Of a stretch of 64,000 nt of DNA, positions 1,917-63,480 are shown piece by piece (position 1 is the first letter of the stretch; each line of letters opens with the position of its first letter). The notes beneath the pieces were generated by a model. It was not told the DNA's origin. It saw nothing but the letters and a program-made list of their open reading frames with translations, and did not search any database. Made by a program: the position numbers and the translations under genes. This DNA is from Drechmeria coniospora (Eukaryota; Ascomycota; Sordariomycetes; Hypocreales; Ophiocordycipitaceae), in assembly GCF_001625195.1 (NCBI RefSeq), contig NC_054389.1:5204520-5268519 (forward strand). The letters run 5' to 3'.

Positions 1917-2310
1917 TTAGTAAGGTTAGTAAGCAAGTACAAACAGTACTTGTACTGTAAGTAAGTACTCCGCACCTACAAGTTCACCTACCTACAGTGC
2001 AGGGCCAGCACTTGCACAGTACGGAGTACAGGTACAGTACAAGTACATCAACAGGCACTAACGACATGGTATTATTGCTGTACGGAGTACGGAGTACTCA
2101 AGCATGTAATAAGCGTACGAAATACATTCAGCATGGTACAAGTCGGCAGCATGTTCCCCGTACCTACCTAAGTAGGTACTTACTTAGAATACTGTGCTTC
2201 TGTCCTCCGTACATGTGCGTGCTATACTCCAAACAGAATATTCATAGTACCCCTACGGAATACTTACAGTGCGTCCCGGACTCGTACTGTGCGCAGCATC
2301 ACACCATGTA
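1917..2310. repeat. GTAC-rich island
   Basis: Dense GTAC tetramers with GTACGGAGTAC at 2019-2029 and the overlapping double copy GTACGGAGTACGGAGTAC at 2080-2097. Weaker copies continue to about 2650. Confidence 0.7.
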
Positions 2311-3939
2311 GGTACGGTGCAACTGCTCCATTGACGCGTACCCAAGTCGCTAGCAGCCAATGGGACCCTTGGAACGAGCCTGTTGGGGGAGGGGAAGCCC
2401 CATCCGTAGCCACCCTCGACAGGGCGATGGAATCTGCAGGCCGCTGAAATGGGCATCGATTGTCGCCCACGGAACGGGCGTAACGACCGCTGAGGTGCGG
2501 CGCCGATCGGCAATCACCTCCATCCAGTGCTCGTAGCGCCTTATCCACACTGTACCACGCTACCTGGTAAGTACCTAGTTTTATTACCTCGGAGGTAGTA
2601 GTAGTACCTAGGGGGTCAGGAACATACAGTACTTGTACGTATGCAGTCCCCAACCAAATGGCGACAGACGGCAGGCCGATTACGGAGGGAAAATACACAT
2701 GTCAAGCAAAATGACTGTACCGTCAAAACGCCCGGGTAAAGGAGATGCCACATCCCAGCATACATCCCTCTCCCGGCAGATAGCATCGGTCATTGTCTAG
2801 GATGCTATGCGTCCCGTAGCGGTCCATATGTGAGCACAGCACGGAGTGCATTCGCCGGACCAAACGAGCACTAGTGCAAACTTCCGTGAGTGGTGGCAAG
2901 GGTCTCGAAACTGCTCGCCTGCCCGACTGGATCGACCATATACAAACGCCCGCCAGGTATTACTAGAGTACAAACAGTCAAAGCGCTGGCTGGTGGCAAG
3001 CGGTACAATGGAACGGGGGGAGGGGTGGTGGCGCGGCATCGTGCCCCCAGCTGGCTGCAGTCAGACTGTCCAGACAGGTCGGTCAGGTGAGCGGCGAGGT
3101 GCCAGTGTCGACGAGTAATCTTGCGGGCTGGAAACCTTTTTCGTCGCTCGCTCTGGGCCTGCTCGGGTGTGCATCAAGGCGAGGTGAGCGGGAGGCGATG
3201 GCAACGAATTATTGGATGCGTTGGCATTATTGAGCGGCGCCGTCTCCTCCCCTCCCCCTCCCCCCCTTCCCAGGCGATCCAATCCACGGCTAGGCAACTC
3301 TTTTCGGGTTCCATGTGCCTCCTTCCAGGTACCGGACCTGAATTGGTACATGATGGCTAGAGAGGCCGGTTGCTCCCTGTCTCGCGTACAAAGTTTTTTT
3401 GGTGTTTGGCCCGCAGCAAGAGAGACAGGAGGAGCGGGGGACGAAGGGATGGCAGGCAAGTGGCAGGCAGGTTGAATTGCGTATCGTCGTCGCTTTGAAT
3501 TTCATGTCACGCAATGCGCAAGGAGCATCTCGCCACGGCGTACGAGCTGCGCACATATTAAATGGCAATATCTGCATGCACCGATCCGTTGGGCGTTTGC
3601 GGGGTAGCATCTGCTATCCGCAGCCTCCCCATGCCTGCCCACCTTGGGTGTTGTTTGCTCCCTCGCCATCGTCAGGGTGCCGGCTCGTTGGAGGGCGTAC
3701 TCTGGATGCTGATTGCTCGGGTTGCTGATCTACGGCATAACAAAGCTCCTCCTTATCCCGGCCCGCAGCAGAACGGCAAGTGAAAGTAGCGCTGCAGAAA
3801 GCCACGAGCCGGATGGGGAAGTCCGATCGATGCCAACTCGCCATTCTCACAGATACGAGCGTGGCCCGGTAGGTGCATGAAGTTGGCGACTTGCATACGA
3901 GACTGCTAGCACGGCAAGTTCACCAGTAGGCCTACAGGC

Positions 3940-5510
3940 ACCCGACCAGGTACCTGATGGATAAGTAGGTACTTGGTAGGTACGCTCCATATAACAGGTG
4001 AAAGTTCTGTAGGCGAAAGTACAGCCCACGCGGGGTATCTGCAGAAATGCACGCAGTCGAACATGTAAGTACAGTACAGTCAGTACCGTAGGTGCTTGCG
4101 TGTGTACCTAAGTATGTATTCGTACCTGTTTGCGCCTACTAACAATCCATATATAAGCTCCGTGCTCCGTACTCCGTACGAATATTCACATATGTGCAGT
4201 GCATTCTGTACTTGCAGTTCACACGATCGTGGGTGGTTTACTTGTACTGTTGCGAATGTAAATACTTACTTACTTGTTTGTTGTACATGAGTGCGTGGAC
4301 GTAATTACATGTATGTGTACGTACTTGCAGCGAGGACTGAGAACGGCTGCAGGGCAAGGACGTATGTGTGCGCCTAGCATATGTACACACACATACATGC
4401 ACACACAATCAACACGAAAAAGTACAGAGTATTACAGCGCAAACACCCCCTAGGTGCATGTGTTCATACAACACCGCTACATGCACATGAAGTCAAGTAT
4501 CCGAGCTGCGGGGAGTAATACCGTAAGAGCGCACCTCGACTCGTACAGTACTGTATTCTGTGGTCGCACGTGTCGCCTGTGGAGGCCCAAGGACTCCAGA
4601 CTCCAGCTGTGAGCGTGGGGTGGGTGGAGGGGTGGAACTGGCACTGACCAGCAGACCAAGCCATGTGATCGGCGCACACCTCGCCAGATGCTGACGAGAC
4701 GCCTGCTTGTTCGGGACGGGGACACGCTGCATCGTGTCCGAATGTACTCGGCATTGTGCGTATTTGTCACTCGCGGGTCGCCGAGGACCAATTCCAGACC
4801 AAGCCCGTGGGAGGAGTGAAAGTGGTCGAATGCTGGACGCACATGCATGCGAGTGACCCAGCTCCGTTCCGCGAGGGTGGTCATAGTACTGTTGAAGCGT
4901 GCGGAACACCGAGGCAAGTACGGAGTTGGTACGGAGTTGGTACGGAGTACTGTACTGTACTTATTGGAAACCAGGATCAATCGGCGCATCCGCAATTCCG
5001 ATCTTCCAGTGGAGGCAGGTCCCTCCATGCCTCGTCCGACGGAGCAGCCCGCACCAGCATCCATCCCCTCAGTGGGCGAAGCCGCAGGCATGGCCAGGCG
5101 CTGCCGATGCCCTTCCGTCATCCATTTGTTCCCAAGCCGGTCCTCACGCGCCAAGTATCCGTCTCCATCTGCGTACGCACGTACTTGCTTTGCACAAGTA
5201 CTGTACTATGGATGGAAATACCAGCCTGCCATGAAATGGAGTTGAGACGGACTGAATGAAGCTTCTCACCCAGCGCTCCCTTCCCTTGCCTTTTTTTTTT
5301 TTTTGCCTCAACCAAACAGGACACCACGAATGAAAGGAACAATAGTGGCGGCGGGAAACTCCTCGGCCGCCGAGTGGCACCAATGGCACCATGCTATTAG
5401 CTGGTACTCGTACTCCGTTACTTGTAAGTGCATGTATTAGTACTACCCAGTGCTCCGTACCCCAACGGGTGCTCTTGTACTGTACAGTACTACGATACAT
5501 GCATACCCCG
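3940..5510. repeat. patchy GTAC-rich island with an 11-bp tandem triplet
   Basis: Dense at 3940-4330, with GTACTCCGTAC at 4169-4179, then patchy. At 4918-4950 three head-to-tail 11-bp units follow each other: GTACGGAGTTG, GTACGGAGTTG and GTACGGAGTAC. More GTAC clusters occur near 5170-5210 and 5400-5510. Confidence 0.65.
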
Positions 5511-5839
5511 CTTGCCCAGACTGAACCCCTCAGCTTACCTCACCCGCCGCTGGCGGCGTTCCGAAGTACGTGCACAACGCCTGTAGTCAGCAATACTGCG
5601 TCCATTTTACTTTTACAGCTTGGCAGCCACTGCACTCTTTGATCGGGTGCCATCGCTGTACTCCGTACCTGCAGTGTGTTTGCCCGTCTGTCCGTCGGTA
5701 GGTTTGATTGCTCGTCACGCAGCCGATTTTCACACGCTCCTACGTGCTTGGACCAGAGGAGCAAACAGATTCATATGGAGCAATAATCCGTCGACTCGGT
5801 TCGCGGCGCATTGGGTGGCAATGCCTATTACCCGCTACT

Positions 5840-6350
5840 AACCAAAGTACAGTACGGAGTACATGCACAGTACTTAAGTATAGGTACAGGTACTTCATTA
5901 CATACAGACACGCAACTGCACTTGTCGCGCCTACTTACTTGCTTGCTTATACAATCAAGTACTGTACTCCGTACGGATACCGAAGCAAAGTAATAATCCA
6001 GCCCAGACCGTCCATGTGGACAGAGGCAGGTGGGGAAGCGGAGCCTAGGAACCTTGGCGCTGGTAGGTCAGTGACTGGTGGTTCGACCGATCCACTTCTC
6101 GCTCGCGGCCTCGCTCCGTTTTCGTCTGCAACGGTACAGTAAGTACGGACTACGGGATACGGAGTACAGTGGAAAGGTATCTCGCCCAGTGCACACAGTA
6201 CTGCTGCTGTAGTTGTACACCCACATCAACCTGTGTACAGTACTGTGTTAGTTGTACTCCGTACGACCATCTCTACTGTAGTTGCAAGTATGTGCACAGT
6301 ACAGTGTTTGCAGGACTTACTAATGCACAAGCAGGTGTATTCCTACATGT
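5840..6350. repeat. GTAC-rich island
   Basis: GTACGGAGTAC at 5852-5862 and many GTACAGTAC, ACTCCGTAC and AAGTAC words. No coding signal. Confidence 0.65.
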
Positions 6351-7189
6351 GTCTACCTATACTTGTTCATGCGAATGTCGCCAGGTCGAAACATGAAACA
6401 TATGCTCCGTTCGGGTAGCAAGGATCATCGCCAGCATGGCGCTCGAGCTAGCAAGTGTTTACATTGGTGCTGCCCTGTTCGTTTCCTTTGTCGCTTGCGA
6501 CTTGCTCCAGGCAGGTGCCAGCTCCCACCCAACTCTCTGTGCAATCAGTCCGGACCGTGACCTGTCAGCGTATGGTGTAATCATGGCCGAGCGAGTAAAG
6601 GCAAATGATGAGGCGCCGGTTCCTGAAGGTACCTCGAACTGGTCGCTAGTATTCCGACCAAGCACCGCTAACGAACCTACGGAGCACGTACAGGCTACAC
6701 AATCGGAAGGGATGGGGGCAGACTGCCCTCCCACCGAGCGTCCAAGGCGGCGCCCTTCCCGGTTTAGACACGATGATGTGAACAGCCTGCTTGCATAAAA
6801 TTACATGAGCAAACAATTGCCCTCGACTCGAAGCGAAAGATCCGGGTCCCCGTACCAGAAGCGGGAGCAAAAATCCAGTCACTCTCAGCCTGTTCCCGCC
6901 CAACATTCTTGTTCGTCGTTGCGACGTACGGAGCCGTCCAGGAGGATTGTCATGTTTCTATTTATTCCGCCATGGGCCAATGGGTACCCGCCTTCGGCTG
7001 TGCAACTGAGCGAAGTGTCTGACTTGGTTTCTGATCCGTCGACGCCCCCTCCTCCTCTTCCCCCCCCCCCCCTCCCTTACTCCTCTTCTCCCCTTCTCCC
7101 CTCCTTCCCCCACCACACCCTTGCCCGAACGGCGCCCCCCCATGCAGGCCAAATGGGCGTGCATGTACTGGACTTACTTACTGTGCTCG

Positions 7190-8590
7190 TGGTGGCACAC
7201 GTAAGTAAGTACAGTACAACTACTCCGTACAGTACAGTATTATTATACTTGCAGAGGTACCTATTCCGTACGAATGTTCGAGTACGGTCTACCCTGACAG
7301 TACTGCGTACGAGTGCGACACACGTGCATGTACAAGTACCTAGGAAGGTATAGCAAGGCATGCGCGCACAATTGCGCAACACTGCAAGTACAGTACAGTA
7401 CACTTGTCTGCTCTCCTGCGCGTTTTTACCATGCTCCTGCACCCACAGCACCGTACAGTGTGCAATCGATGTTACCAGGAATATATATGGGAGGCGGGCA
7501 GTCATGTGAGCGCACAGTGGTAACGAACCAACGAAGAAGGGGTCAGCCAATTACTGTCAGGAGGCGTAAATGCTCCGTATTTTGTCTTATTTGCTTTCGG
7601 GGGCGTTTCCCACCTTGAGGGGCATTATCGTCCGTACCAGGATACCTCGTACTTGGTACTCCGTACTACTGTACAAGTACGGAGTGCTGTGCAGAGTACA
7701 TACAGTAACATGCCGTAGATTCCACCTTTGGGACTACGAGTATTACTCTCTTTCCAAGTACTAGACTCATAAGGTGTACGGAGTAATTAGTTGCAATACA
7801 TGTACATGCACCGCATGTCCTAGCAGGCGCCCATCCGTACTGTGCAACATCTGCAGCTGCAAGGCACGGCACGGCACTACTGGCTGCACTTAAGTGCAAG
7901 CATGCTCGCTCTTAGCAAATACGCACGCACGGAAAATTCCGTACCAACGTTGTTGTACAGCTACTTTTGCCTACTATTGCCTACCAATTAATTGGCCTCT
8001 TGATCCGCCCCCAGCCGTCGCTGGCATTTAGGGCTTTCTCCGATGCCAATCGGCAGTTGTGCCCACTGTATTCCAGGGGAGCCAGACACTGCATCGATGC
8101 TACTAGGAACAAATACAGGAATACAGTACTCCGTACGAGTCCATGAACTCTGTACGGATACAGTAAGTAGTGTCAATTGCTTACTACTATTTTTCACTCG
8201 GGACTAGCACACGGACAAGTGCAAGTACTCCGTAGTTGTACAAGCACTGAAAGTAAGTACTAACGTTATCACCATGTACGGAGTACATGCATGCAATACA
8301 TTACAGTAGTGCAGAACGCCAACACCCGCTCTGCTAGTGCATGCACAGACGTACCGCATACATGTACTTACTTACTCCGTACAGTACAACAAGTAAGTGC
8401 TTCAGTTCACAAACTTGCACATACTATAGATGCTCCGTGGTACTTGTACGTTCTCGTTCTGTACTGTATGACCTGTACTGTATCGGAGAGGGGGGGTACA
8501 GCAACGAATACATTAGTACTTACGTGCACTGTATTCTCCGTTCAGGTACCTACAGTACGGAGTACATCTCTGCGCTTCATCGCCGGAAAG
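7190..8590. repeat. GTAC-rich islands in three patches
   Basis: Patches at 7190-7410, 7630-7810 and 8120-8590. Exact motif copies are GTACTCCGTAC at 7656-7666 and GTACGGAGTAC at 8276-8286 and 8555-8565. The spacer DNA between patches has ordinary composition. Confidence 0.65.
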
Positions 8591-17145: not shown

Positions 17146-19766
17146 CACCAAGGATGCGGCCGCCGGCGTCTTGGGCTTTGGGAGTTTCGGCGAAAGGGAC
17201 GGGACTACTGGCGGACGGTCACTTGCGAGAGCTCATGGACAAGCACGCAGGCGGGAAGGGAAGCAATCATCAGAGATATGCGCCGGCGAAGCCATCCATC
17301 CTTTGACCGCCGTTCGATCCTGTACGAAAAGGGGGACAGGGCGCAGCGTAATACCAACTGCGGGCGGGTAAGCATTGAATAGCGTTCGTCGTTCACTCTG
17401 AGTACAAGCTTGTGCGCGCGCATGGGTCGGTCGGGACAGACGCGGTCGTGGTTGGTTTGGGCTACCCTATACCAACACCGTGATGGACGCAGCATCAACA
17501 TGACCCCTACTGATGACATCATCGGTACCGAGCGATGTTGAGATCAATGTGATCGAGTAATTACCGTACTTACAAACACATGGCGCGCAGCACGCTCCAA
17601 TATGGGCGGTACGTGATACTCGCTACATGATACACGGTCCATGACATGGACGGTATGTTTTTCGCCTGAGCATGTGACCAAGACGCTGCCACTACCATCG
17701 CGGCTCTCGCAAAGACACTGGGACAATCCAACGTCGAACCTTGTGCCTGGGATTGCTTAGGCAACCAATCCAGACGGAGCGGAGACAAGATGGATTGCAT
17801 TTGCAACTTGGCTGGCGAGCATTGGTGAGATTGTTGCGTGGTCGTCTATGGTCCTCTCCGCGTCTATGCCTTGATTTGAGGCCTCGTATAAATGGCGTAC
17901 GAGGCATTGCTCACCTGACATACTGTCACGGCGTATCATCAGCAGGTGGCGCCCAAAACGGGCGCCACCAAGGAGAAGGGGGGCGGGGGGGGCGTGCGTG
18001 TCTGAATGAACGTTGATGGAGTCTCCGTGGTGGAGGTTGTTGGGGATATCAGCGCGCTTCGCCTTTTCGGGCCTGAAGGGTTCCCACGGCCGACTTACGG
18101 CGATTGGTGAGTCAGCAGGACATGGCTGATCAATAAGCCAACAAGGTTCGGGATGCTTCTTGAAGTCCGTTAGAAGTCGGCGGCCTTGCGGCAGCAGTTG
18201 TTGGGGATGGCAACTGGATACCTCGCTGGACACGGCTATGGCGGTAACGAGCTGGCATTTTTGATTGTCCTTGGCTTGACCGCCTGCAGAATGGTGGATG
18301 AATGGACGGCCCCGACGCAGCATGAAGGATGTACAGTACATGTACACATCATCACGTACGGCGTACTTGCCACACATTCAGTGCAGTACCGTGCCATGCG
18401 GTGACTCATGCACATGAACATGTACAGTACTTATGCTGGTGCACTGTACGCATATGCTCGTATGTACGGGAACCTACTCCGCACATGCCTACTTACACTG
18501 TACTGTATTAATACATGTACTTACAGTACAGCACAGTACAGTACGTGCTGAACGGAGGATTTACATGTACAGTACACAAACCAAGTACTGGGTACCTAGT
18601 GCCTCAGGTACCAAGGTACCACTATTCCACATCGAAGCCGTGCCATTGTCACTGTTTCCGCTGCTTGCGACAGACTGCCTACCTGAACTTACTCCATGCT
18701 GCCGCTACACGAGCAGGCAGGTACACTGCATATAGCAGGATTAGAGTGGAGGTACGGGTTATCTGTACGCGCAAGTACGTGTGCGTGGACGGACTATTGG
18801 TGATGTGATCCATTGAGCGATCTATTGGCGAGCGGCTGGCGGGAGGTCCTTCGAGACACCGACACATGGCCCGCGCTACGGGGCCTCTACGCTGTAGCTG
18901 CAAGTGACCCGGCAAAGCATCATCCCCCGCGTTCGCATTGCCTGCTAGTCACGACCACCAAGGTACCCTGCAGGTGTCATGGCCCGCCCCCCTCTTTCCT
19001 ACGGCAACCCAGGCCCAAGCCCCCCCCGCCACCCCTCAGCTGGGCCGCCTGCGACACATGCCTACGGTGCGCAATAGCACCGACTCCAGGCCACCACAGG
19101 ACAGGCAGGTACTAACCTTGGCACCCCAAGGCACCGACAAAGGTACGGGCGGACGACCGCTGTGCATGTAGCGTTCTGAAGTCATCAGCACCCGTCCCGA
19201 GGCCGAGCACCGGCCCTCCTCTCACCCTTCCCGTCTCCAGACTTTCGACAGCTTCCATCCCATCCAGCCCGTACTCGCAGACCGTGGACGGTTACCATCC
19301 ACCGAGAGAGCCTTTGTTCTGTCCGGTTCCCTGTTCCTTTTTGCCTACCCAAACCACTCTGCCCATCGTCGTCGAAGCGCCAACCTACGTACCGCGAGGA
19401 AGCCTCCCGCGTCGACGGCCGCCACCGACCGCTGCGACTGTCGCTGCTCCGTCTCCCGCAACACCAACCTCGCACCGACCCTGGGTCTGGCCCTGATAAC
19501 ATCCCCCCCCCCCGGCCAGCGAGGGACCAGGGTGTCTGTCGAACGGTACGCCGACCGTCGTCCCTCACCACCCCTCCCCCCCTCGACCCGCTTCCGCCTC
19601 CGTCTCCGGCGTCGCACTCGGCGCTCGACCCTCCTCCCTCATCAACCTCTCCCTCCTCGTACGAACCTCTACGAACCTCGACCACGGCGACGGCGGATTC
19701 TTGCTCTCTTGGCCTTTCTTCCAGGGGCAGGAAACTGCTCTTGCCGCGCCCCCAAACACCAGTTGA
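17146..19766. other. intergenic region with GTAC island and long C-rich leader
   Basis: No gene seen in 2.6 kb. A GTAC-rich island lies at 18340-18790. From about 19170 to 19760 the plus strand becomes strongly C-rich (CCACC, CTCCC, a C11 tract at 19503-19513), as in long fungal 5' leaders. The long open frames on the minus strand here are its G-rich complement. Confidence 0.5.
18340..18790. repeat. GTAC-rich island
   Basis: Many GTACAGTAC, GTACTT and ACGTAC words, without an exact GTACGGAGTAC. No coding signal. Confidence 0.6.
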
Positions 19767-21654
19767 ATGCCTAGTACGTGGCGACATGGTCCCCTACCCC
19801 TCCCCCGTCCTGTCCGCCGAGACGTCTGGCTGACGGTGGGGCAGGCTCCAAGAAGGACAGGAAGCATGGCAGAGAAAACGGCGGAATCGCGGCGGCGGTG
19901 ACCAAGCAGGCTGCCGTCAGGCTTCCGTGCGTCTTGACCCTCCCTACCCCGAAGCGATCGTTGCCGAATGACGTTGGCTGACGGCGACGCCGGACGAGCA
20001 GAAACGGCCACGGCGGCAACAGCAGCAGCAGCAACAACTCGCCCAAGAGCCTCCCCGTCTCGGACGCATCGTCCCCCCCCGAAAACACGCCCGAGATCAA
20101 GCCGTCGCGGCCGGACAATGACAAGCACGGCCCGTCGCCCCTTCTCGAGGCCCTCTCGACGACGTCCGTCTCCGCAAGCACCGCCCCCAGCATGGCGAAC
20201 GAATGGCTCAAGGGGGCCATCCTGGCGGGCTCGCCCGGAAACCTCATCAACCTGACGAGCGAATCGCCGCCGACGCAACCTTCGTCGTACGAGGACGCCG
20301 GCCGCGGTCTGCATCACGGCTGGCCCGTCGCCCCGCGGCCCCTGATGAGTCCCTCGCCGGCCTCGCTCTCGCCTCCCCGCGACCACCGTCGTCCGCTCAG
20401 CATCCAGATGGATGCCAAGTACCACGTCCACGGCCCGTCACCCCACGCCGTCTCGGCTGCGTCCCACCGCCGGAGCTCTCTGCATTCCCCGTACCCTCAC
20501 TCCAGGGCGAGTCCGCACCCCCCGCTCCCCCATCAAGCTCAGCCGCACTTCTACGGCGCGCAGGATCTAGACCTCACCATCACGCCCCAGTCGGGCGGCA
20601 TGAAGGCGGGAAGCCACGGCCTCTTCCTCGGCTTCGACAAGCTGCCCTCCGTCCACGGCTCGGCCGGCCAGCAGAACGTCGTCCTGGCCGGCTACGAGGG
20701 TGGCTTGCAAGTCTACGCCGTCACCAAACGAGGCTTGGATCGGGTGGCACACCTCAAGGGTCTTCGCGGCGGCGTTCATCATGCCAAGATTCTTCCATGG
20801 ACCGTCAAGGGCGGAAACGACGGCCTGTCCCCCCTCGTCGCCGTCGTTGTGCATGGTCCGGTCCTGTCCCCGACACCCGCCGGCCACGATGACGAAGCGG
20901 CACCTGCTGCGCCGGAGAGTCCTCGCCGGGGCATCGCCCAACCAGAAGGACCTCAAGGACAGCTTGGACGGCCGCCACCCGCACCGCTCTTCTACCAGAC
21001 GGCCGTCGAAGTCTACTCTCTCCACACGAGCCAACTGGTCGACGTCCTGCTGCAAACTCAGAAGCTGCCCATCAACACCGAGGTATCCATCTATAGCCCT
21101 CTGTTCAAGCCGCCGCCGCCCAGCGGAGCCCTCACCGTCAAGGCCGACGCCGGAACCGTCGCCGTCTGCTCCGGCATCACCGGTGAGTGCTGGGTGTACC
21201 GTCAGCTTGTCGAGGCCCAAAACGAACACGCCTTTGCCTGCACCGGCAAGCTCTGGACCACCCTCCAGCAAGGCCACGGCGCCGAGGTCCCGGAGGAGGC
21301 TGCCGGTGGCAAGGCGCATCCCGCGGCCGCATCCCAGCGACCCAGCCCGCAAACTCCGATCCTCGCCCTCGGCGGCCACTGGATCGCCTACTGCCCGGCC
21401 GCGCCGTCCTCGCAAATCTCCCTGCGAGCGCACGTGCCGGTGCCCATCCTTGGCCGAGCCCCCGGAGTTTCCTCCCTGACGCCCCCCCACCTCCCTGCCG
21501 TCTCGGCGGCGGTCGAGCTCCCCATCTCGGACAGCGTGGTGAACAAAATCATGCGGGAGACGACCCAGGAGCTGATCCAGGGTGCCAGGTGGGTTGGGCA
21601 GCAGGGATTGCAGGCCTGGAACTCGTACTGGAACAAGCCGTCGGGTGCGCAGTC

Positions 21655-21690
<36 letters not shown>

Positions 21691-24228: not shown

Positions 24229-24888
24229 TGTTAGAACACACGTAGATGCGTGGCGATGGTGATTCCGTACGCAGGCGCCTGCTGAAAAGGAGCGTGGTTC
24301 AGTCGCGGTGCCAGCAAGGGATGCGCAGTAATACTCCGAGAGCTTGTGACGATGCTGTCTAGTTCAAGTGAGCTGCAATATGCGCACGGTACATGTAAGT
24401 ACAGTGCGGCAATACGCAGCACTGCAACAAGTACATACTTATGTAAGTACGCTTGCTAGGCACTACAGTGTGCAGTATTTCCTGCCGCATGTACTTGTAT
24501 TTACTTTTGTGCACTGTACGAATACTCCGTATATGTATTAGGATTAGTTCCCACCAGGAAGCACAGTGCAGCACTTGGCTAGCGCAAGGTACCTTGATGC
24601 ACAGTGTGGTGCAAGTACTTACATAAGTACGGAGTACATGCATGGACTTCATGTGCTTACTTACTTAAGTGCTGCACCGTAGAAGGGTGAGGCAGGGTGG
24701 CGGTGCATCACTGTGGCGCACCGTCGTTCATCGTGCCAGCCTTGCCTTGCTGAGCCTTGTTGGCCCGTGCACCAGATTTCCTTGGTAGAAACTCCAAGCC
24801 AAGACAAACAAGGCTGGCGGAATTATTCCTTTACCATACCATCTCTCGGTTGCTTATTTCCAACCCGACAACGCACCTCACAACGACG
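24229..24888. promoter_or_regulatory. shared divergent promoter region of DPM2 and CWC22
   Basis: The 660 bases between the two divergent starts contain a GTAC-rich island at 24385-24670, with GTACGGAGTAC at 24627-24637. No gene seen. This is one of the few places where an island sits directly between two divergent housekeeping genes. Confidence 0.5.
24385..24670. repeat. GTAC-rich island
   Basis: GTACTT, GTACAGTG and one exact GTACGGAGTAC within the DPM2-CWC22 promoter region. Confidence 0.6.
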
Positions 24889-32004: not shown

Positions 32005-32038
32005 TGCGGCGGCAGCGGTGCGTTGGCCGCGGTGTCGC

Positions 32039-35598: not shown

Positions 35599-35611
35599 CT
35601 TTATCTGGCTC

Positions 35612-35648
35612 GACTGGACCGGACTGGACTGGACTGGACTGGACCGGA
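35612..35648. repeat. GGACT pentamer repeat in a 5' leader
   Basis: About six or seven GGACT/GGACC units lie just upstream of the GPI-protein start codon, in its 5' leader (AGTCC on the coding strand). Confidence 0.85.
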
Positions 35649-36949: not shown

Positions 36950-37450
36950 CAATGCAAGTACTGAGTGCGGAGTGCTGCACGTTGTGATATGCATATTAGT
37001 ACTTGGGTGTACTTACAGTACTGTACTGTAGTCTGTGCTTGTGGGTGTAGCGGGTGTAAGTACACGGTGGTAATTACTCCGTAAGTAAGTAAGTACTCCG
37101 TACTTACTGGTATATTGCCGTGGAGGAGGCACTCGCACCTTGCGTGGAGCACATGATATTCCTGGTAATTTACTCCGTAATTACTTCGTACCCTGATGGA
37201 TGAATTGGCGACGAATGAGCAGTCGGTACTCCGTACAGTTGGTGCGACAAGCAGGGTAGGTACCGCTGAGGACCTTGATGGTGCGTTGGCACGCAATGCC
37301 GCCCCTCCTCCACTCGTTACACCGCGCCGGGTAAGTACGACGTAATACTTCATACTTAAGTACTGCACCTGGACGCGGCTGGTGTAATGCCTGTGTAAGT
37401 GTACACTGCGCCGTGCCGAGTACAAGTACCTACTAGGTACTTACAGTAGG
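36950..37450. repeat. GTAC-rich island
   Basis: Dense GTAAGTAC, GTACTCCGTA and GTACAGTAC words, with the run CCGTAAGTAAGTAAGTACTC near 37079. No coding signal. Confidence 0.6.
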
Positions 37451-38769: not shown

Positions 38770-39310
38770 CTATGGTTATCCGATCTAAGTACGGAGTACT
38801 ACTATGGCTATCGATCTACCTCTCAACGCCGTTGTATATGTACTCTCGAGGCGTTTTGCACTTGCGTATCTCCGCAAGTGTGAACTACTACTCGGTACCA
38901 TTCAAGCAACATCTACTCCGTACATCAACAGCACAAGTCGTCGGTGTGCATGTACATGTACTTGCGAGTATTGAATGCCCGTACTTACTGTACGGAGTAC
39001 GGAGTGCATGTCCTCCATTGTAGCTGCAAGTATGGCCTGTACTTTTTACACGTACATGCAAGTACTGGAATGCATTATGCGTATGCTTGCACTGTAGGTA
39101 CTCCGCCTGGAGTACAGAGTACTGTACGGAGAATTACTCCGTATTACTTCGAACTACTTACTTGTACATGCAACAGTACGGAGTGCAGAGTACAAGAACG
39201 GCGCAAACGGATGAATAGTGTGCTCATAAGTACTTGCAAGTATACGCAAGTCCTTCGACGCGCAATTAAGTACTGCTGCACACGTATTACTTGAACTCTA
39301 CAGTACATGC
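38770..39310. repeat. GTAC-rich island
   Basis: GTACGGAGTAC at 38789-38799 and 38990-39000, many GTACTT and CTCCGTA words. Confidence 0.6.
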
Positions 39311-40008
39311 TGGTCCATCTGCATAAACTTCCCAATCGGGGTGGAGAACCTTGACGGTCAGTTACGTCTCATCCCCCCCCCCCGAGCTAGACCAAACTGA
39401 GCGAACCCATCAGGATTCGCGCCGACGACGAATCACAACCTCCTCAAACCTCAGCGATACCACCAGATGCCGCAGGCCTGCGTCGGACGGCAGTAAATAT
39501 CAATCCTTCTTATCGGTGCGCGTCCACTCTGCCTCCTGCTCTTTGCACGATCTTGGCTCCATGCTGACCCAACGATGACCTAAAAGCCCCTCCTTTCACC
39601 CTTCGCTTCCGTTTCTGGAAGAAATAAACCCCATCTCGTAGCCTGTCTGACCTGTCTTGACCTGTCCGTCCCGACTTTGACCTGTCCTGCCAACTTTGTC
39701 GCTAGCGTCCGTCATCCGCTTCGTCGGCCCCCAGCCAAGTTTTGCCAAGGCCAACTCGTCCGCTGCAGCCCAAGCAGGCGCCCTCTCCCATCCTCTTCAT
39801 CGACACCGCCTCCGCAGGACGAACCAAAGACAGACACCTCCCCCGCTCTACTTACTGTACATTGCTCTCCGCTGCTGCAGTGCTGAGCTGGCCCATCCCG
39901 ACGTCCCCGAACGAAGCGCGAGGCTCGAGCCTCATGATAGTCCGTCCGTGTCGAGTCGACGAGACCGACTGCTAGCAAGCCGTGTGCCAACGAGCCAACG
40001 AGCCGAAG

Positions 40009-46958: not shown

Positions 46959-47512
46959 ATGAAGGCGTTAGACCTCGTCGTCGTTCTGGCGTCGGCCGCC
47001 GCCGTCGCTGCTACGCCGATTCAGACACGGGCTCTAGGCGGTGTAAGACTTTCCCATTTCTCACCTCTCTTGCACCTTCCTGTCCCTCTTCGTCATCTCT
47101 CGTTCGCCTCCACTCATTCAACCCCCCCCCATCTTCTCTCCTTCTTTTCCGTTTCTTTCTCCTTCGCTTCTCCCGCCACCCAGCTGTTGGTTCAATATCG
47201 TAGGAGCTAACGGGCCATCAGGTTCTTATCTGCACCGGACCTAACGCTACAGGTACATGCATGCACAAGGTGGTCTCCCTCAACGTCTGCCAGCAGCTCG
47301 AAGCGCCATTCTACCGAAATGCAAGCACATTTGCGCCCGACAGAGAGCCTTTTGCCTGCTCCCCCCGCGCTTTCGACTGTCAAGGTATCTGTCGGAGCCC
47401 GACCGGCTGCACATTTGGTGCCGTGGATTTCGCCTACGAGCACAAGTTCAACTTGAGTGCCATCGGCTGGAACACCATCATTTCGAGCTTCGACTGCTTC
47501 CTGAAGGAATAG
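46959..47512 (+). CDS. small secreted protein with eight cysteines
   Basis: Two exons, 46959-47042 and 47222-47512, encode 124 aa. The 179-base intron has donor GTAAGA, branch GAGCTAAC, acceptor ATCAG and a C9 tract (47122-47130); an earlier CAG acceptor would meet a stop. A signal peptide of about 19 residues ends at AVAA-TPIQ. The mature protein has eight cysteines (VLICTGPNATGTC, VC, AC, DC, IC, GC, DC), two NxT/NxS sites (NAT, NAS) and the layout of the fungal family with opening V-x-I-C-T-x-x-N and a central F-x-P-D. Such proteins are often host-induced or effector-like. Its function is not known, and no enzyme motif is seen. Confidence 0.8.
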
Positions 47513-52678: not shown

Positions 52679-54770
52679 GCTGGAGATGCGGCAACAGTCC
52701 GTCCTCGCGTTCTACACCTAAGCGGGACCAGGGACGGCTGCCATGAAATCCGCCGGTTGCTTCTTCGCTCGCTCGACGACCGATGGCGGCTTCGCACTCG
52801 TGCAAGTACTCGTCTTCATAGACCGATGCGTACATGTATAAGCACCCGGTCGTATATATATCGCCAGGGCGATGGCGGTATGAATTGGTGTGCGGCACCG
52901 CCATGCGCAGAAGAGAGGGCAATCGAAGACGGCAGACGAGGCGAGATGAGCGAGTGCGGGGAAGAGGGTTGGCAGGCGGCTTCGTCCGGAAGACGAGGCT
53001 CGGTGCTTCGACGAGAAGCAATTCTGCCTCAGCCCTGGGTGTCGAATCGCAGGACCGTGCGATGGGTAGTACGCGAGGCGATCAATCGGCAAACGTCTGG
53101 CTACCGGCCATGTGCTGCGACCTGGTACTCCAAGAGTCCCATCAGGGGCTGGCCTCGTCCGATATTGAAGGGCGTCTTTGTGGAGGGGGCAGGCTCGGTC
53201 TGAGAGCCTGTGAGTGGCCAGTTTGGCCCCTGAGACAGGCCGTTCATAGGTCACTTTCAGGGTAGAGGTCAATGGGGCCGCGCTATTGGCTACAAGTTGC
53301 GCGCATACGTTCTGCTACCCGTTTACCAGCAACGTTCGCCATGATGCATCCGCCTTTATCGGGACTAGCTCTAGTTGATAAATGACAGCAATCTGCATCC
53401 TTCGCGCCGTCGATAATCATGCAACGGCACGGAGTAGACTGGCAAAATTCATGGCCTACAGTAGTACTTACACGTACTTGTCCTTGTAAGTGTAAGTACT
53501 TAAGTAAGTGCACGAGCAAAGTTACAGTACAAATTACTTGCAACTTGTAATTGCACTACGGAGTCCATGCACACTGATAATACGTACTCCTACAGTACTA
53601 CGTAGTTGTACACGTACTTGCACGTGCTGATCAGCTAAATTACACATGCACGTTGGTAGTACATACAATACGGAGCAAGTATCCTTGCTTATTTGTTAAC
53701 AGTGTCTCGAACAGAGTATTACATAAACATTGAGGTATCCATGTTGGAACTTGGGCATGAAGGCTTGTTGTATTGTACGGATGAGGAATATGTGCTCCGC
53801 AAGTGTACATGCCCTTCCAATTATCCAAGTATCTACTCCGTACTCGGTACTAGTAGTTGTAGTACCGACAGTACACAGTAAGTACATTTGCGTTACAGAA
53901 CGCTGCATGTTCCCATACTGTACGTCACCCCGAGCATGCCTACCTAGCCTTGACCTTTGATTTTCCCCCCAATATTTCTACGCGGTACTTGCGTGTAATC
54001 TACGAGTACAAGTACGTACGGGGAGAACCACGACATATGCGTGTAAATCTGTTACTGTAATCCCTACAATAGGTGTACACGTACGGAGCACAAGAACGGA
54101 GTACTCCGTGTGGAGTACGTACCTGAATCAGTATTAGTGCGCTCCGTACAACATTTATTTCTTACTTACGTATATGCGCATGTGTACGTACCTATGTACA
54201 GTGCAAGTCAGTAGTGGTACGTACTTAAGTTCATGCATGAGTACAGTACGGAGTACGGAGGACGCATACTAAATACATGTATTACTCCGTACGCGGACAG
54301 ATAATGCACTTGCACTTACAGTACAGTACATGCACAGTAGTAGGTGCAGGTGTATTATTACTTACGAACGAGCCTGACTGCCAAGCTTGCCAAACTCGGG
54401 ATCCTCGGCGCAGCAATGTTCATCTTGGGGCCCGGGCACATTTCGGCAGCAAGCCACACCCCGACTCCAGCCACAGGCGCCCCGCCGATTGCACCGCCAT
54501 CTAACTCTGCTCTTGTCAGTGGTGCATGTTGATTGTTTACATTCGCTAGCTGTGCTCTTTGGACGATTGCTGGAGTCTTGGACAACAATAGATACACAGT
54601 GAGACACCGCACATTCAAGAAGCGACGCCGAAGCGATTGCGATAGGATTTAATAGTCATTGAAGACCTCGCTAGTCTCCATCATTACCTTTCGTTTCGCA
54701 TCTTCCAAGTCAATCAACTCGCAGCTCGAGACCGTTGCTTGACCAACAGAATTGGTCACGACTCACGACC
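52679..54770. other. intergenic region with large GTAC island
   Basis: No gene seen. The GTAC-rich part is 53455-54370; the rest is ordinary. The last 150 bases are the leader of the myosin light chain gene. Confidence 0.5.
53455..54370. repeat. large GTAC-rich island
   Basis: One of the densest islands. GTACGGAGTAC at 54246-54256, and the perfect palindrome ACGGAGTACTCCGT at 54096-54109, which contains CGG-N6-CCG. Long runs of GTACTTAC and AAGTAC. Confidence 0.7.
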
Positions 54771-55776
54771 ATGGTAGGGGGGCCACTGTGGTGCCCAACC
54801 CCCCCCCCCCCCCGCAAGAGAGAGGAGCTCGCTAACAGTGCCATTTGCCATCGTCCGCTTGTGCAGTCTGTTTCAGCATCATACAAGCCTTCTCCTTTGG
54901 GATACGGATCTTCTCCTCCAACTCGCAGCTCGCCCTTCCGACGACCCGAATCTCCTGCCTCGCCTTCGCCGCTGCGACACACGACACCCACGACGTCCCC
55001 TACCAAGGCCCCGGTGGCAAGTGGGGGGTCCAGATTCGCGAGGCCAACTACTCCGACGAACATACCGGAGAGTTGGGCCACGAGGGACCGGCCCGTCACC
55101 GACAACATGATGGCAATGCCGCAGAAGCCCGGGCCGCTCTCGAGAACGGCGACGTCAAAGTCGCTGGGGAGCGGCAACGCGCTCTCTCAATTACAGCCTG
55201 CGCAGGTTAGATCGCTCCGAGACGGTTTCCAGATCTTGGATCGGGATTGCGATGGGGTTGTCAATCGCGACGATGTCACGGACATGCTGAGCCAGCTGGG
55301 TAATGGCGCCCATGTTCAAAGATCACGACAAAGTCACGTTGGAGAGCTAACGATTACAAGGTCTGCCAAACGGCCCTTCCGACGTCGCACATTTTTTCCC
55401 GCCATCGCGGCCGCAGACGATTGCCCTCGCGGGCTTTCTGAACTCGCTGGCCGAGGCACTCGCCGCTCTCTCTCCCAGTGCCGAACTCCTCTCGGCCTTC
55501 TCCGCGTTTGACGACGATGACAGCGGCCAGGTCGACTGTGCCGAACTTAAAAACGCGCTGCTGAGTACGGCATCGGAGCCTGGGGAGTGTCCATTGACCC
55601 AGGCAGAAGTGGACAAGGTTGTCAGCGGATTCACGGGCCGCCGGGCCTTTAACCGCAACATGAATGCGCAGCTAGGCGCAAAGAAGGGCGACGTGTTCAA
55701 ATACCGCGAGTTTGTCAATTCCATCATGAGCACCAACGCTGCCGAACCTGCTTCGAACGAGAGCTCGGAAGGTTGA
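54771..55776 (+). CDS. myosin regulatory light chain (Rlc1/EF-hand)
   Basis: Three exons, 54771-54773, 54867-55299 and 55361-55776, encode 283 aa. Exon 1 is only the ATG; the 93-base intron (donor GTAGGG, branch CGCTAAC, acceptor GTGCAG, C15 tract at 54799-54813) is a multiple of three and open, so a longer unspliced form cannot be excluded. The Ser/Pro/Arg-rich N-terminus (PFRRPESPASP, TSPTKAP) offers phosphorylation sites. An EF-hand with loop DRDCDGVVNRDD at about 125 and a second region DDDDSGQVDCAEL at about 195 show the light-chain pair; the C-terminus resembles calmodulin-like light chains. It should bind the IQ motif of type II myosin at the cytokinetic ring. Assignment to Rlc1 rather than Cdc4 rests on the N-terminal tail. 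Confidence 0.8.
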
Positions 55777-56249: not shown

Positions 56250-56600
56250 GTACAAGTATTTTCCCTTGTTGCTGAAAGTGCAGCAGAGTACTCCGTACAC
56301 GGAAAAGGTATCGTTGCTAACAATAGTACGAGCACTTCTACGCACAGTGTACGCATACATGGTACAAGTGCTCCGTACTCTGAAGCAATTAAGTGTGTGG
56401 TTGAAATTCTGCCTGTACGGAGTACAGTATACATATGTACACCTAAGTACAGTACTGTACTTAAGTCGGTGTACAGTACATGTACTTGCATGTGCTACGA
56501 CAAGTGAGTACGGAGTAATATTACTTTCAGCAAGTATTTACGGAGTACTTGTATCCAAGTGCATGTGCTGTGCGGAGTACATGTGCTCCGCTCCGTCACT
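56250..56600. repeat. GTAC-rich island
   Basis: GTACGGAGTAC at 56415-56425 with GTACTCCGTAC-like and GTACAGTAC words around it. Confidence 0.6.
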
Positions 56601-56662
56601 GCAAGTCCGATCTCGCTCGCACCCCGGGTGGTAGGGGCGGGCCGCCTCTCCCCCGCCCCACT

Positions 56663-56675
56663 GAACCTTCTAGAA
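56663..56675 (+). promoter_or_regulatory. perfect heat-shock element
   Basis: GAACCTTCTAGAA has three alternating GAA/TTC units at the canonical spacing (GAA-n2-TTC-n2-GAA), the binding form for HSF1. It lies 2.2 kb before the J-protein start and 0.9 kb after the myosin light chain. No nearby heat-shock gene is clear, so use is uncertain. Confidence 0.4.
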
Positions 56676-57764: not shown

Positions 57765-57960
57765 GCACGTACATGTACTCCGTACTCCGTATAGTAATCA
57801 ATGTAATTACAAGTACTCCGTACGGAGTACGGTGTATTACATGTTCTCGTACCGACGAGAATCTACTTTCATGCACGGAGCATGCACGGAGTGATACAGC
57901 AAGTACGGAGTACAGAAGAGTACTCTGTGCTCTGTACGACTGCGCCACAGGACGTACTTA
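57765..57960. repeat. GTAC-rich patch with perfect 18-bp palindrome
   Basis: GTACTCCGTACGGAGTAC, a perfect palindrome, is at 57813-57830; further copies are GTACTCCGTAC at 57775-57785 and GTACGGAGTAC at 57903-57913. Both motif orientations meet here. Confidence 0.75.
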
Positions 57961-58839
57961 TGTACCATCAGCGCCCTCAAGGCGATCTGGGCCTTCGTTT
58001 GGGAGTGAATCGTATCCAGGAAGCGAGGCGTGCCAAGCACCATTTCGAACCAGCAGACTTCGTTCAACCTTTCAGTACCCTCTTCCCTAGCACACAACTT
58101 GGCTGGGGGGGGGGGGGGGTTGAAAGGCCCCCGAATTTTGCTCGTGTTCCAGTGCCGAACCGAATGGGTAGTAACCGCATCGGTAGTGACAGAGCTAGCT
58201 GGCACTTGGGGTTCGGGGCACAATTTCATTTCTCGCCCTGCCGCGGTGACGAGGGGTGTGAATTTTGTGCGGGTGCAGCGTGTATTAAATAGGCCCGAGT
58301 GTTGGTCGTAATTCCATCGTCGACATTGTGTCTTGTGTCCGTATCTGCGAGTGCATGTACTCCGTATATTGTGTGCCTGCGTTGGACTCGGGCGTGTGGT
58401 CTCCGACTCTGTTCTTCCCAAAACTCCCAATCACTCCCTCACATGAACAATCCCGACGTCGCCCGACGACACACATTCATCCTTTCGCTCCTCTTCCACT
58501 GCTCCTCCGCCAGCATTGTGCTCGTTGCCTGCCGAGGCCTCCGCTCAGCTCGACTAGACCGAACTCATCGCCTTGGTCGACGAACGAACCACCTCACGAC
58601 CGTCCCGCACCACCCGCATCGCGCCCCATCATCCGCGTTCCGCCGCTGTTGCATTCGCTCTGGGCTTTTCGGTGGCCCAGGCTTTGCCCCCTTAGCTCTT
58701 AATGCCCGTTTACTAGGCGGCCCCCCCCCTCCATTCCACCGGCTGCAGTTCAGTATCCGGCATAACCTTGTTTCGGGACAGCCCTTACTCGTGCTGGTTT
58801 GAATACTTATCGTCGTCCCTGCGGCAAGCCAGTGCCCCA

Positions 58840-61530: not shown

Positions 61531-62042
61531 AATGGCGGTTGGGTGGAGGATGCGCGTACAGCGTGCTCGCACAGGCATTTTTGCACGGCGTTTTCTCCTT
61601 TTGGGTCTAGACATATTGAATCAGATGGCCGAAGTCTTCGGGACCGAAACAAGGTGGGCGGGCAGCTGCAAGGGCGGTTGCGATATTTACATTGGAGTGG
61701 CATTCACATCTGACGAGCAACCATTACACGAAAATGAGTGCCGGTTGGAGATGGGGATGGTTGGTAGACATCGTATCGACTGCGCTATCGCTCTTTACGC
61801 CTCAGCTCCGTAGTGGAGGAGGTCACCTCGAAAAAAATCAACGACTCGCTTCTGCGGCTCTCGCTGATGCCTAGCACAAAGCCTGCTGCTCGACATCTGG
61901 GTATCATGCGCCAGGGGACGCTAGTTCCGCCGCAGTACGGCATTATGCCGTAGACTCGGCCACAAGGGCCGGAGGGGCGGGTTAATATAGGTAGAACGGC
62001 AGGCAGCTTGCCGTTGCCGCACTCGTGGACGCTGTTGTCAAA
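61531..62042. other. convergent 3' intergenic region
   Basis: Between the J-protein extension and the end of MED10. No gene seen; an overlapping plus-strand frame at 61454-61813 has no motif. Confidence 0.4.
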
Positions 62043-62861
62043 TCAACTCCCTGTCTCGGCGCGACCGAAACCATCGGCCATGGTCGAACTGGCACTCTGC
62101 GACTCGGCCAGCTGCCCTCCAGGGACAGGACTATTGCTCAGGGCCTTATCGTCTGCCGAACCCAGCGGTCTGCCGCCGGTGGCTTCGAGAACGCGCTCGA
62201 CGTCTTCTCTGAGCTCGGGCATGGCGCTGGCCATTTCGGTCGCGAGGACGTCGCGGAAGGAGGCAAACGCGTCCATCTTGCCGCTCATGAGCTGGTTGCC
62301 ACGGCGGACAAGCTCGACGAATTCTCGTGTGTAGATGTCGGGGTTGCGACCATTCTCGACGTACTCGAGAAGCTCGGGCGGCACCGAAGGGAGGGCGACG
62401 AGTGGTGACGTCGAGGTTGCGTAGATTGCTTGGATTGAACGAGAAAGAGTTTCTCTGTCGTGCCACCACGTCAGCCATTTTATTCTTTGGAGGGGAGGAG
62501 AAGCAGAGAGAGGAGGAGCAGAGGGGGGAGCAGAGGGAGGAGCAGAGGGAGGAGGAGACGAGGGAGGAGGAGACGAGCGGAGGAGTAGCGGAGGGGAGGA
62601 GGACGAGCGGAGGGACGGAGTAGCGGAGGGGAGTGGCGATAGGAGACTGACATTTCGTTGGACATGACGTCACGGCTGGGGCGACCTGTGGTGTCGTAGG
62701 TGGTGACCTGGACCATGATGTTGTAGAGGTCCTGGATGATGTCCTTGAGCTGCTCTGCGAGATGCGTCAGTCGTACGAAAAAGGAAGGGCCAACGAGGGA
62801 AGGAGTGCTTCATGTGCGTACGCTCAAGTTCATCGTGGCTCACTAGTTCGACGGGCGCCAT
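62043..62861 (-). CDS. med10: Mediator complex subunit 10
   Basis: Three exons, 62861-62822, 62754-62652 and 62454-62043, encode 184 aa. Joined sequence reads EQQLKDIIQDLYNIMVQVTT, then GRPSRDVMSNEIETLSRSIQ and the family block VPPELLEYVENGRNPDIYTR, then EFVELVRRGNQL. MED10 (Nut2) is in the Mediator middle module. Intron 1 (67 bases) has donor GTACGC and acceptor CGCAG. Intron 2 (197 bases, donor GTCAGT, branch GGCTGAC, acceptor ACAG) is mostly a CTCCTCC-type microsatellite. The length fits fungal MED10 (150-200 aa). The start ATG 62861 opens MAPVELVSHDELE. Confidence 0.93.
62501..62643. repeat. purine microsatellite in MED10 intron 2
   Basis: Degenerate GGAGGAGC/GGAGC units on the plus strand (CTCCTCC on the coding strand) fill most of the intron, forming a long polypyrimidine tract. 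Confidence 0.85.
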
Positions 62862-63109
62862 GATTGCGGATGTGCGGCTGGCGTTGAGTTGGTCGTGGTT
62901 GCAAGAGTAAAGCAGGTCGCACTCTTGGATGGAGGTTGCGAGTTACCATTGATGCAGCAAGGCCCAGTCCGTGCCAGAGTGGACCGACCTCGCACTCGTA
63001 GCTCCGACTTTCCTAGGCAAGGAATATGAATAGCCCGCCCCACACCACGGGACGGACTATTATTATTACTTCTCCTCCGTGTTCGGAACACCTGCCAGCA
63101 ATTATAAGT

Positions 63110-63480
63110 AATACTGCACTTCATACATGTAGGCGGTCTACTTGAAAGTACATGAGTACTTACGGGAATACAGCTACTTACAAAGTAAGTACTCCGTACT
63201 TGTACTTACTTAAGTAATTACAACCCAAGCTTGTCTTGTTCGGCGTACTTGTTCTAATATTATATATGTGTATTGTAAGTGGAGTACTTGTACAGTGCGT
63301 ACTTATTCTTGTACAGTACATAGTAAGGAGTATGGTGTACTCCGTAATTAATTATTACTTAAGTAAGTACTTTAAGTACTACAAGTGAACGGTGTGTACT
63401 GTACGGAGTACTTAACTACTCCGTTCGAGTACAGTACATGTATTTATTGCACTGTACGGAGTATAGTACACCTCATTCCT
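63110..63480. repeat. GTAC-rich island
   Basis: GTACTCCGTAC at 63189-63199 and GTACGGAGTAC at 63401-63411, plus self-complementary runs of ACTTAAGTAAGTAC. Confidence 0.7.

Follow-up and report, generated by a model that had tools for sequence, protein, structure and literature searches.

A GTAC-armed 11-mer as a probable gene-control site of very wide use in Drechmeria coniospora

Introduction

In budding yeast, the general regulatory factors Reb1, Abf1, and Rap1 have strong sites at a large share of promoters; to our knowledge, the general promoter factors of filamentous ascomycetes are poorly known. In cyanobacteria, the highly iterated octamer palindrome HIP1 occurs thousands of times per genome, within genes too, and its function is unsettled. 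Binding sites of Zn2Cys6 factors carry a CGG triplet, usually paired. Ustilaginoidea virens belongs to the Hypocreales, the same order as D. coniospora, and Aspergillus belongs to another class of fungi.

Two published motifs stand closest to the word described here. According to the available text of one report, the top ChIP-seq motif of SomA, a Flo8/LisH-type regulator, in Aspergillus fumigatus is GTACTCCGTAC, present in 119 of 476 shared ChIP peaks and missing from the other 357, with 426 SomA-bound genes (PMC7667024). The same text describes EMSA in which purified SomA bound motif-bearing fragments, mutation of the agd3 site, written there as GTACTCCGTAT with one final-base difference, abolishing the signal; for one gene, two SomA sites are located in the ORF and the 3′ UTR (PMC7667024). 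An EMSA on the meaB promoter has also been published, and we count it in favor of protein binding. In U. virens, the accessible part of a second report lists the 9-bp core TACGGAGTA as one of six MEME motifs in the ChIP peaks of UvCGBP1, 74.52% of which are in promoters; the EMSA-tested site of that factor is C/AAGGGG (PMC8344781).

Read as its reverse complement, the SomA motif is letter for letter the D. coniospora word GTACGGAGTAC. The two systems thus share an identical 11-mer, which in A. fumigatus lies upstream of many targets and has been tested by EMSA. They differ in that the motif marks a quarter of the A. fumigatus peaks, whereas D. coniospora carries thousands of copies, as putative binding sites, within a family of GTAC dyads. 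The likeness to the UvCGBP1 motif extends to the 9-bp core and the mostly promoter-located peaks, but that motif is one of several for a factor with another tested site.

Results and discussion

Abundance and sequence specificity of the 11-mer

In the window, the whole 64-kb stretch of D. coniospora DNA analyzed here, GTACGGAGTAC occurs in 27 exact copies on the two strands (Table 1) against a chance expectation of 0.03, and none of 100 dinucleotide shuffles of the window reached that number. An earlier note on this DNA had counted about 18 copies by eye in a dozen islands; its observation is confirmed and proves to have been understated, and at a 500-bp cut the copies form 12 clusters spanning 2019 to 63411. 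The excess extends to the genome, where 8,489 copies in 32.83 Mb compare with 21 of the reversed word. Set against the 8,281 genes given in the D. coniospora genome paper, as far as its text was available, this amounts to roughly one exact copy for each gene. The accessible portions of published D. coniospora genome descriptions do not mention the 11-mer, and Rfam at gathering scores gave no match anywhere in the window.

The abundance is specific to the middle triplet. Genome-wide, versions of the word with GAG or AGG in place of GGA number 74 and 79, so that the GGA centre is more than 100 times commoner than either permuted triplet tested. For this reason a plain GTAC bias confined to noncoding DNA, one of the explanations offered previously, is insufficient. 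Change is also uneven along the word: G-to-A variants number 960 at position 1 but 278 and 283 at positions 6 and 8, the tested inner-base changes being rarer than the tested edge change. Each 11-mer unit contains one CGG triplet, with no second CGG or CCG inside a single unit. The word resembles HIP1 in the extreme over-representation, to thousands of copies in one genome, of a short palindromic word, although the GGA centre keeps it from being a perfect palindrome. HIP1, by contrast, is prokaryotic, perfectly palindromic, and not excluded from genes.

The companion words reported from the same islands are real, GTACAGTAC and GTACTTAC each occurring 33 times in the window versus 0.24 and 0.75 expected from dinucleotides. 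We rejected hairpin or quasi-palindrome mutagenesis, with GTAC as a 4-bp stem and GGA as the loop, as the origin of the word. A structural cause should favor other palindromic arms, and therefore the scarcity of CATG-GGA-CATG, which keeps the GGA centre and has 22 copies genome-wide, counts against it; other self-complementary tetramers do little. As side observations, CATG at gap 2 occurs 53 times versus 13.4, and certain loop-free inverted 4-mers are likewise over-represented, for example TACA-TGTA (89 versus 14.5).

Position relative to genes

Gene calls were made over a 314-kb sample with a periodic Markov HMM built for this analysis rather than taken from annotation. In HMM-called coding DNA, which makes up 116.7 of the 314 kb, we found none of the 119 sample copies and none of the 27 window copies, in agreement with the earlier remark that the word is absent from coding exons. 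An HMM-free set of 51 greedy stop-to-stop frames of at least 350 aa (92.8 kb) contains 5 of the 119 copies; four of these, all in one frame, stand ahead of its first ATG, and the fifth is in a frame with an HMM coding fraction of 0.0.

The density of the 11-mer between genes tracks the number of adjoining promoters. In the sample it is 0.83/kb between divergent genes (63 copies in 76.3 kb), 0.42/kb between tandem genes (41 in 98.7 kb), and 0.09/kb between convergent genes (1 in 11.3 kb), with a divergent-to-tandem ratio of 1.99 (permutation p 0.001) and an order that was unchanged in nine settings. The general GTAC word is likewise promoter-biased, at 14.6, 10.8, and 4.3 per kb. A copy lies within 2 kb upstream of 39 of the 71 called genes. 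The 250 bp immediately before coding starts are sparsely populated (4 copies in 17.0 kb), and the excess on the upstream side becomes borderline at distances above 750 bp from genes, where 12 of 78 copies are downstream (p 0.05).

The 11-mer has no significant orientation bias. Assigning each copy a single time, to whichever start is closest within 2 kb, gives 41 to 33 (p 0.42), and copies facing exactly one start divide 26 to 29; a per-gene count gives 42 to 39, but enters copies between divergent genes twice and so is pulled toward equality. With two palindromic GTAC arms around an asymmetric GGA/TCC centre, the site would probably be usable in either orientation.

Table 1. Copies of the 11-mer and a related array in the window
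Feature	Position	Strand	Evidence
11-mer copy	2019..2029	+	exact match
11-mer copy, overlapping 2087..2097 copy (heptad doublet 2080-2097)	2080..2090	+	exact match
11-mer copy	2087..2097	+	exact match
11-mer copy	4169..4179	-	exact match
Short tandem array of related unit GTACGGAGTTG, leading into perfect 11-mer copy	4918..4948	+	TRF
11-mer copy	4940..4950	+	exact match
11-mer copy	5658..5668	-	exact match
11-mer copy	5852..5862	+	exact match
11-mer copy	5964..5974	-	exact match
11-mer copy	6254..6264	-	exact match
11-mer copy	7656..7666	-	exact match
11-mer copy	8126..8136	-	exact match
11-mer copy	8276..8286	+	exact match
11-mer copy	8555..8565	+	exact match
11-mer copy, upstream of CWC22-like gene called at 24860 (+)	24627..24637	+	exact match; HMM segment; Pfam MIF4G/MA3; homologue names
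11-mer copy	37093..37103	-	exact match
11-mer copy	37226..37236	-	exact match
11-mer copy, upstream of ZIP-transporter gene called at 40150 (+)	38789..38799	+	exact match; Pfam; HMM
11-mer copy	38990..39000	+	exact match
11-mer copy	54246..54256	+	exact match
11-mer copy	56288..56298	-	exact match
11-mer copy	56415..56425	+	exact match
11-mer copy	57775..57785	-	exact match
11-mer copy, overlapping 57820..57830 copy in inverted order	57813..57823	-	exact match
11-mer copy	57820..57830	+	exact match
11-mer copy	57903..57913	+	exact match
11-mer copy	63189..63199	-	exact match
11-mer copy	63401..63411	+	exact match

Although plain GTAC bias fails, a sequence-specific mutational or repair process acting in open, untranscribed DNA could make GTAC words, GTACGGAGTAC among them, without function; depletion from exons and transcribed flanks would then reflect purifying selection or transcription. 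The promoter bias of the general GTAC word is what such a regional process would produce, and many other GTAC words are enriched, including GTACAGTAC (8,731 genome-wide versus 501 for its reversed control) and dyads with linkers A/T and AA/TT/AT. GTAC clustering declines smoothly with distance, and one-mismatch variants (15,363, or 23,852 minus the exact copies) are 1.8 times as numerous as exact copies, a ratio that a family born and decaying neutrally could yield as well. We nevertheless regard this process as unlikely, given the preference for GGA over the two permutations tested, the uneven change along the word, the fact that GTAC alone among the 16 self-complementary tetramers behaves so to such a degree, and the recovery of the identical 11-mer in Aspergillus, as the accessible SomA text has it.

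Flanking sequence and repeat structure

High copy number and dispersal are what would be seen if a tiny mobile or replicating repeat inserted as a unit, and the earlier note had listed such a repeat among its explanations. The flanks of the 119 sample copies speak against it. Target-site duplications are in no excess over shuffled flanks, matches of 2- to 7-mers numbering 8, 4, 0, 0, 0, and 0 versus 5.7, 3.4, 0.30, 0.11, 0.19, and 0.08 expected, with one 8-mer match versus 0.03. Strong conservation ends at the edge of the 11-mer, beyond which these copies have weak base preferences and no conserved unit. Similarity between islands is likewise short, 21 to 48 bp in the best 15 of 179 BLASTN pairs, and we consider insertion as a unit very improbable.

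A satellite or microsatellite built from tandem 7-bp units is hardly credible. Heptad doublets do occur, as at 2080-2097 (Table 1), but of the 109 heptad arrays in the sample, 100 consist of a single unit, eight of two units, and one of three. TRF reported 25 rows for the window, one of them the short related-unit array in Table 1; neither the 11-mer nor its heptad is the repeated unit of any row. The earlier view that the islands are not microsatellites is borne out by this lack of head-to-tail arrays in the 314-kb sample and the window TRF output.

A putative promoter element and its candidate reader

The bias toward promoters, the specificity for the middle triplet, and a published ChIP-seq and EMSA motif of identical sequence all argue for the remaining suggestion, a factor-binding site. 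The earlier note had a Zn2Cys6 factor in mind; SomA, the single reader known from publication, is of the Flo8/LisH type. The 11-mer probably serves gene control on a very wide scale and is probably not a jumping element or the product of random bias. Our favored reading, which we hold with some confidence, is that GTACGGAGTAC is a putative protein-binding promoter element set in islands of related GTAC dyads, its likeliest named reader being SomA/Som1/Flo8. The 11-mer and its weaker GTAC relatives, with linkers A/T and AA/TT/AT, would together form islands of about 100 to 300 bp, mostly upstream of genes, through which a bound protein may affect transcription. Local duplication plus point change probably gave rise to the sites, and selection acting on their inner bases probably maintains them.

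Of the named candidates, SomA, alone or with a partner, appears the likeliest reader: its top ChIP-seq motif in A. fumigatus is the same 11-mer, and mutating the motif there abolished EMSA binding. However, some 8,500 sites far exceed the 426 SomA-bound genes, and therefore most sites cannot form a SomA regulon as ordinarily understood. A search with the LisH profile PF08513 found five places in the genome, with translations that read as GID8, RanBPM-like, TAF5, GID9/MAEA, and NudF types; no SomA-like LisH gene was among these five, and SomA may be intron-split or too divergent for the profile.

It is a real possibility, if the less expected one, that the element is protein-bound but that its reader, instead of SomA, is a promoter factor of general action, comparable to Reb1, Abf1, and Rap1. 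The sites of those factors likewise stand at a large share of promoters; their sequences differ. On such an account, the motif would owe its appearance in both the SomA and UvCGBP1 ChIP-seq lists to the sheer number of promoters that carry it. Since the TACGGAGTA core occurs in peaks of an unrelated factor, the SomA association could be promoter co-occurrence. The frequency of about one copy per gene, the outcome of the PF08513 search, and, in the available published text, recovery of the motif for unrelated factors in two fungi far removed from each other and in only 119 of 476 SomA peaks all fit a reader other than SomA. The binding of motif fragments by purified SomA and its loss on mutation, described in the accessible EMSA account, argue the other way.

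More speculatively, TACGGAGTA with GTAC arms might be a general promoter element of filamentous ascomycetes, bound by one widely acting factor at most promoters. The SomA motif and the UvCGBP1 side motif would then be its shadows, and other GTAC dyads, with linkers A and AA/AT, would be sites of the same or sister factors. We put this forward tentatively and think it rather doubtful. An 11-bp site present about once per gene, mostly in promoters, would be a candidate basic piece of filamentous-ascomycete promoter design. The abundance of the 11-mer also bears on the published SomA motif claim: a motif so common could recur in many ChIP-seq experiments, and motif-defined SomA regulons therefore need a check against genome-wide background.

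Other occurrences of the word

Several apparent links to published work were dropped. The 11-mer string is part of a primer for FvCon7 and for A. flavus SntB, lies inside one element for the A. fumigatus SINEs, and comes from a synthetic GAL4 reporter for Zscan4; the motif of SclB is AATTCCCCG. Matches to the 18-mer GTACGGAGTACGGAGTAC occur in six IMG/VR stretches, within or adjoining related heptad runs of the TACTCCG/TACTCAG type in four (L009, L010, L012, and L013) and in a run of about three units in two (L011 and L014). They are of no use as a fungal comparison, the two with ORFs read being phage-like (L014) and bacterial- or phage-like (L012), neither fungus-like. Primers carrying the 11-mer in A. 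flavus, A. oryzae, and Coccidioides indicate that the word exists there and nothing more; those of A. flavus and A. oryzae represent a common stretch.

Abundance and sequence specificity of the 11-mer

We searched the 32.83-Mb genome of Drechmeria coniospora (28 contigs), in which the window occupies C1:5204520-5268519, for the 11-mer GTACGGAGTAC, whose two GTAC arms flank an asymmetric GGA centre (TCC on the other strand). The window holds 27 exact copies in 12 clusters, against 0.03 expected by chance, bearing out and enlarging an earlier note's estimate of about 18 copies in a dozen islands. The excess extends to the whole genome, with 8,489 exact copies (4,201 + 4,288) compared with 21 (6 + 15) of the same word read backwards. 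Given the 8,281 genes reported for this species (PMC4792172), this amounts to approximately one copy per gene. Allowing up to one mismatch yields 23,852 words, of which 15,363 are one-mismatch words distributed over 33 variants at a mean of 466 each; the reversed control yields 686. Proteins encoded in the window are similar to those of the order Hypocreales, and the CWC22-like protein has matches in Trichoderma, Metarhizium, Tolypocladium, and others among the 120 of 4,411 matches listed.

Permuting the centre to GAG or AGG between the same arms leaves 74 and 79 copies genome-wide, respectively, and swapping the arms to CATG around GGA leaves 22. We also used a sample of 314 kb, made up of the window, the 200 kb that follow it on C1, and 50 kb of C2. 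In its 197 kb of non-coding DNA, GTAC pairs are conspicuous at three spacings: gap 1, where 139 of 154 pairs are separated by A or T; gap 2, where 102 of 153 have AA/TT or AT; and gap 3, where 119 of 179 have GGA/TCC. GTAC is the commonest of the 16 self-complementary tetramers and the only one with an excess of that size at gaps 1 to 3, CATG showing a lesser excess at gap 2 (53 versus 13.4). Together, the spacing and tetramer comparisons make the 11-mer the sharpest member of a GTAC dyad family. Genome-wide, GTACAGTAC occurs 8,731 times and its reversed control 501 times. Other words are also strongly overrepresented in non-coding DNA, in the window and across the sample. With both strands counted, TAGGTACCTA occurs 28 times versus 0.3 expected and GTACATGTAC 78 times versus 3.9; a further example is AGTAAGTA, at 122 versus 9.3.

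Exclusion from coding DNA

Coding calls from a periodic Markov HMM cover 116.7 kb of the 314-kb sample. None of the 119 copies in the sample overlaps called coding, upholding the earlier note's claim that the word is absent from coding exons, and none lies inside a putative intron. Seven of the nine window frames submitted matched a Pfam family, six above the curated cut-off (CWC22 MIF4G/MA3, WD40, ZIP, C2H2, SPA, and TPR-DnaJ) and one, ING, below it; the HMM strand is consistent with all seven. Because the HMM was trained on the same DNA, we repeated the count on 51 long, previously chosen frames, which contain 5 of the 119 copies versus ≈35 expected by length. Four of these five lie upstream of the first ATG and the other in a frame that the HMM rejected.

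Island structure

In a 264-kb stretch, GTAC clustering is strongest within 100 to 300 bp, with a weak tail further out, and GTAC density within 100 bp of an 11-mer is 33/kb versus 12/kb in non-coding DNA overall. The short mobile or replicative repeat suggested earlier is not supported, since target-site duplications show no excess around the 119 sample copies, one 8-mer match aside, and flanking base preferences are weak (54 of the 119, for instance, have A at −1). Nor is a satellite, as 100 of the 109 arrays of the heptad (the 7-bp repeat unit of the 11-mer) in the sample are single units. When 73 islands were compared with one another by BLASTN, 179 pairs had E below 1e-3, and the best 15 of these span 21 to 48 bp; similarities this short are what islands with words in common should show, and do not point to one long ancestral element.

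The 11-mer is also present within heptad runs on IMG/VR contigs, bacterial or phage arrays that look like a separate, tandem phenomenon. The 314-kb sample contains 35 runs of at least nine C or G, of which 7 overlap called coding, and nine-C words in non-coding DNA number 135 versus 0.77 expected, overlapping words counted.

Coordinates of individual features in the window and on IMG/VR contigs (C/G run, at least nine C or G; heptad run, TACTCCG/TACTCAG type)
Feature	Sequence	Position	Strand	Remark
Overrepresented words	window	2161-2190		
Open frame	window	19982-23287	+	1101 aa; no Pfam match at E 0.001
Tandem repeat	window	35021-35431		129-bp unit, ~3 copies; overlaps minus-strand frame called at 34853-35720
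C/G run	window	914-924		
C/G run	window	7060-7072		
C/G run	window	19503-19513		
C/G run	window	28148-28161		
C/G run	window	38391-38400		
C/G run	window	39373-39383		
C/G run	window	40328-40339		
C/G run	window	47122-47130		
C/G run	window	54799-54813		
C/G run	window	58105-58119		
C/G run	window	58721-58729		
Heptad run	L009	5413-5480		
Heptad run	L010	1-110		
Heptad run	L012	5745		
Heptad run	L012	9179		
Heptad run	L013	23-65		

Promoter bias

The 11-mer is a genuine genome-wide dyad, specific in its centre and, in the sample, biased toward promoters. Using the 105 of 119 copies that lie between two called genes (the remaining 14 were omitted), we obtained densities of 0.83/kb in divergent (n = 16 regions), 0.42/kb in tandem (n = 37), and 0.09/kb in convergent (n = 15) intergenic DNA, a proportion of roughly 2:1:0 that parallels the number of adjoining promoters. 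The divergent-to-tandem ratio is 1.99 (permutation p 0.001); binomial tests, which ignore clustering, gave 0.0007 for divergent versus tandem and 0.022 for convergent versus the rest. This order is kept in every comparable length band, some cells of which hold few regions, and over nine settings of merging and minimum gene size.

Copies are sparse in the 250 bp next to coding sequence on either side, with 4 in 17.0 kb before coding starts and 1 in 15.5 kb after coding ends. More than 750 bp from any gene, the downstream side has 12 of 78 copies (p 0.05), which weakens a strong promoter reading and indicates that the bias is partly depletion in transcribed flanks. A copy lies within 2 kb upstream of 39 of the 71 called genes. 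Orientation is not significantly biased (41 GGA versus 33 TCC, p 0.42), each copy being counted once and assigned to the nearest start within 2 kb.

Published counterparts and possible readers

ChIP-seq of the Aspergillus fumigatus regulator SomA gave 476 shared peaks and 426 genes; the motif that MEME ranked first, GTACTCCGTAC, is the reverse complement of the 11-mer and occurs in 119 of the 476 peaks (PMC7667024). In EMSA, motif-bearing agd3 and ega3 fragments were bound, and mutation of the agd3 site, printed as GTACTCCGTAT and differing in one final base, blocked binding (PMC7667024); a second paper includes an EMSA with meaB. Both this recurrence in Aspergillus and the specificity of the centre weaken a mutational process as the source of the word, which we regard as unlikely. 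Variants in the sample are concentrated at positions 1, 5, 9, and 11 and scarcest at positions 3, 4, and 6 to 8; genome-wide, position 1 has 960 G-to-A changes, compared with 278 and 283 for positions 6 and 8, respectively. We read this sequence pattern as probable constraint on the inner bases. Mutation context effects and other GTAC background words could contribute to the unevenness, and the ratio of one-mismatch to exact words (1.8) is by itself compatible with neutral birth and decay too.

Most simply, the 11-mer is probably a protein-binding promoter element, for which SomA or a general promoter factor may be the reader. A LisH profile search of the genome found five places, of the GID8, RanBPM-like, TAF5, GID9/MAEA, and NudF types from their translations; the profile may have missed a SomA domain that is split or has diverged too far. 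Absence of SomA would be surprising because its LUFS/LisH domain has been aligned with counterparts in fungi such as F. oxysporum, N. crassa, and M. oryzae (PMC4631450). Among the matches listed from the open-licence PMC literature, we found no paper that describes the 11-mer as an element iterated throughout a genome. For UvCGBP1, an AGGGG-binding factor of U. virens, ChIP-seq gave TACGGAGTA as one of six motifs (PMC8344781).
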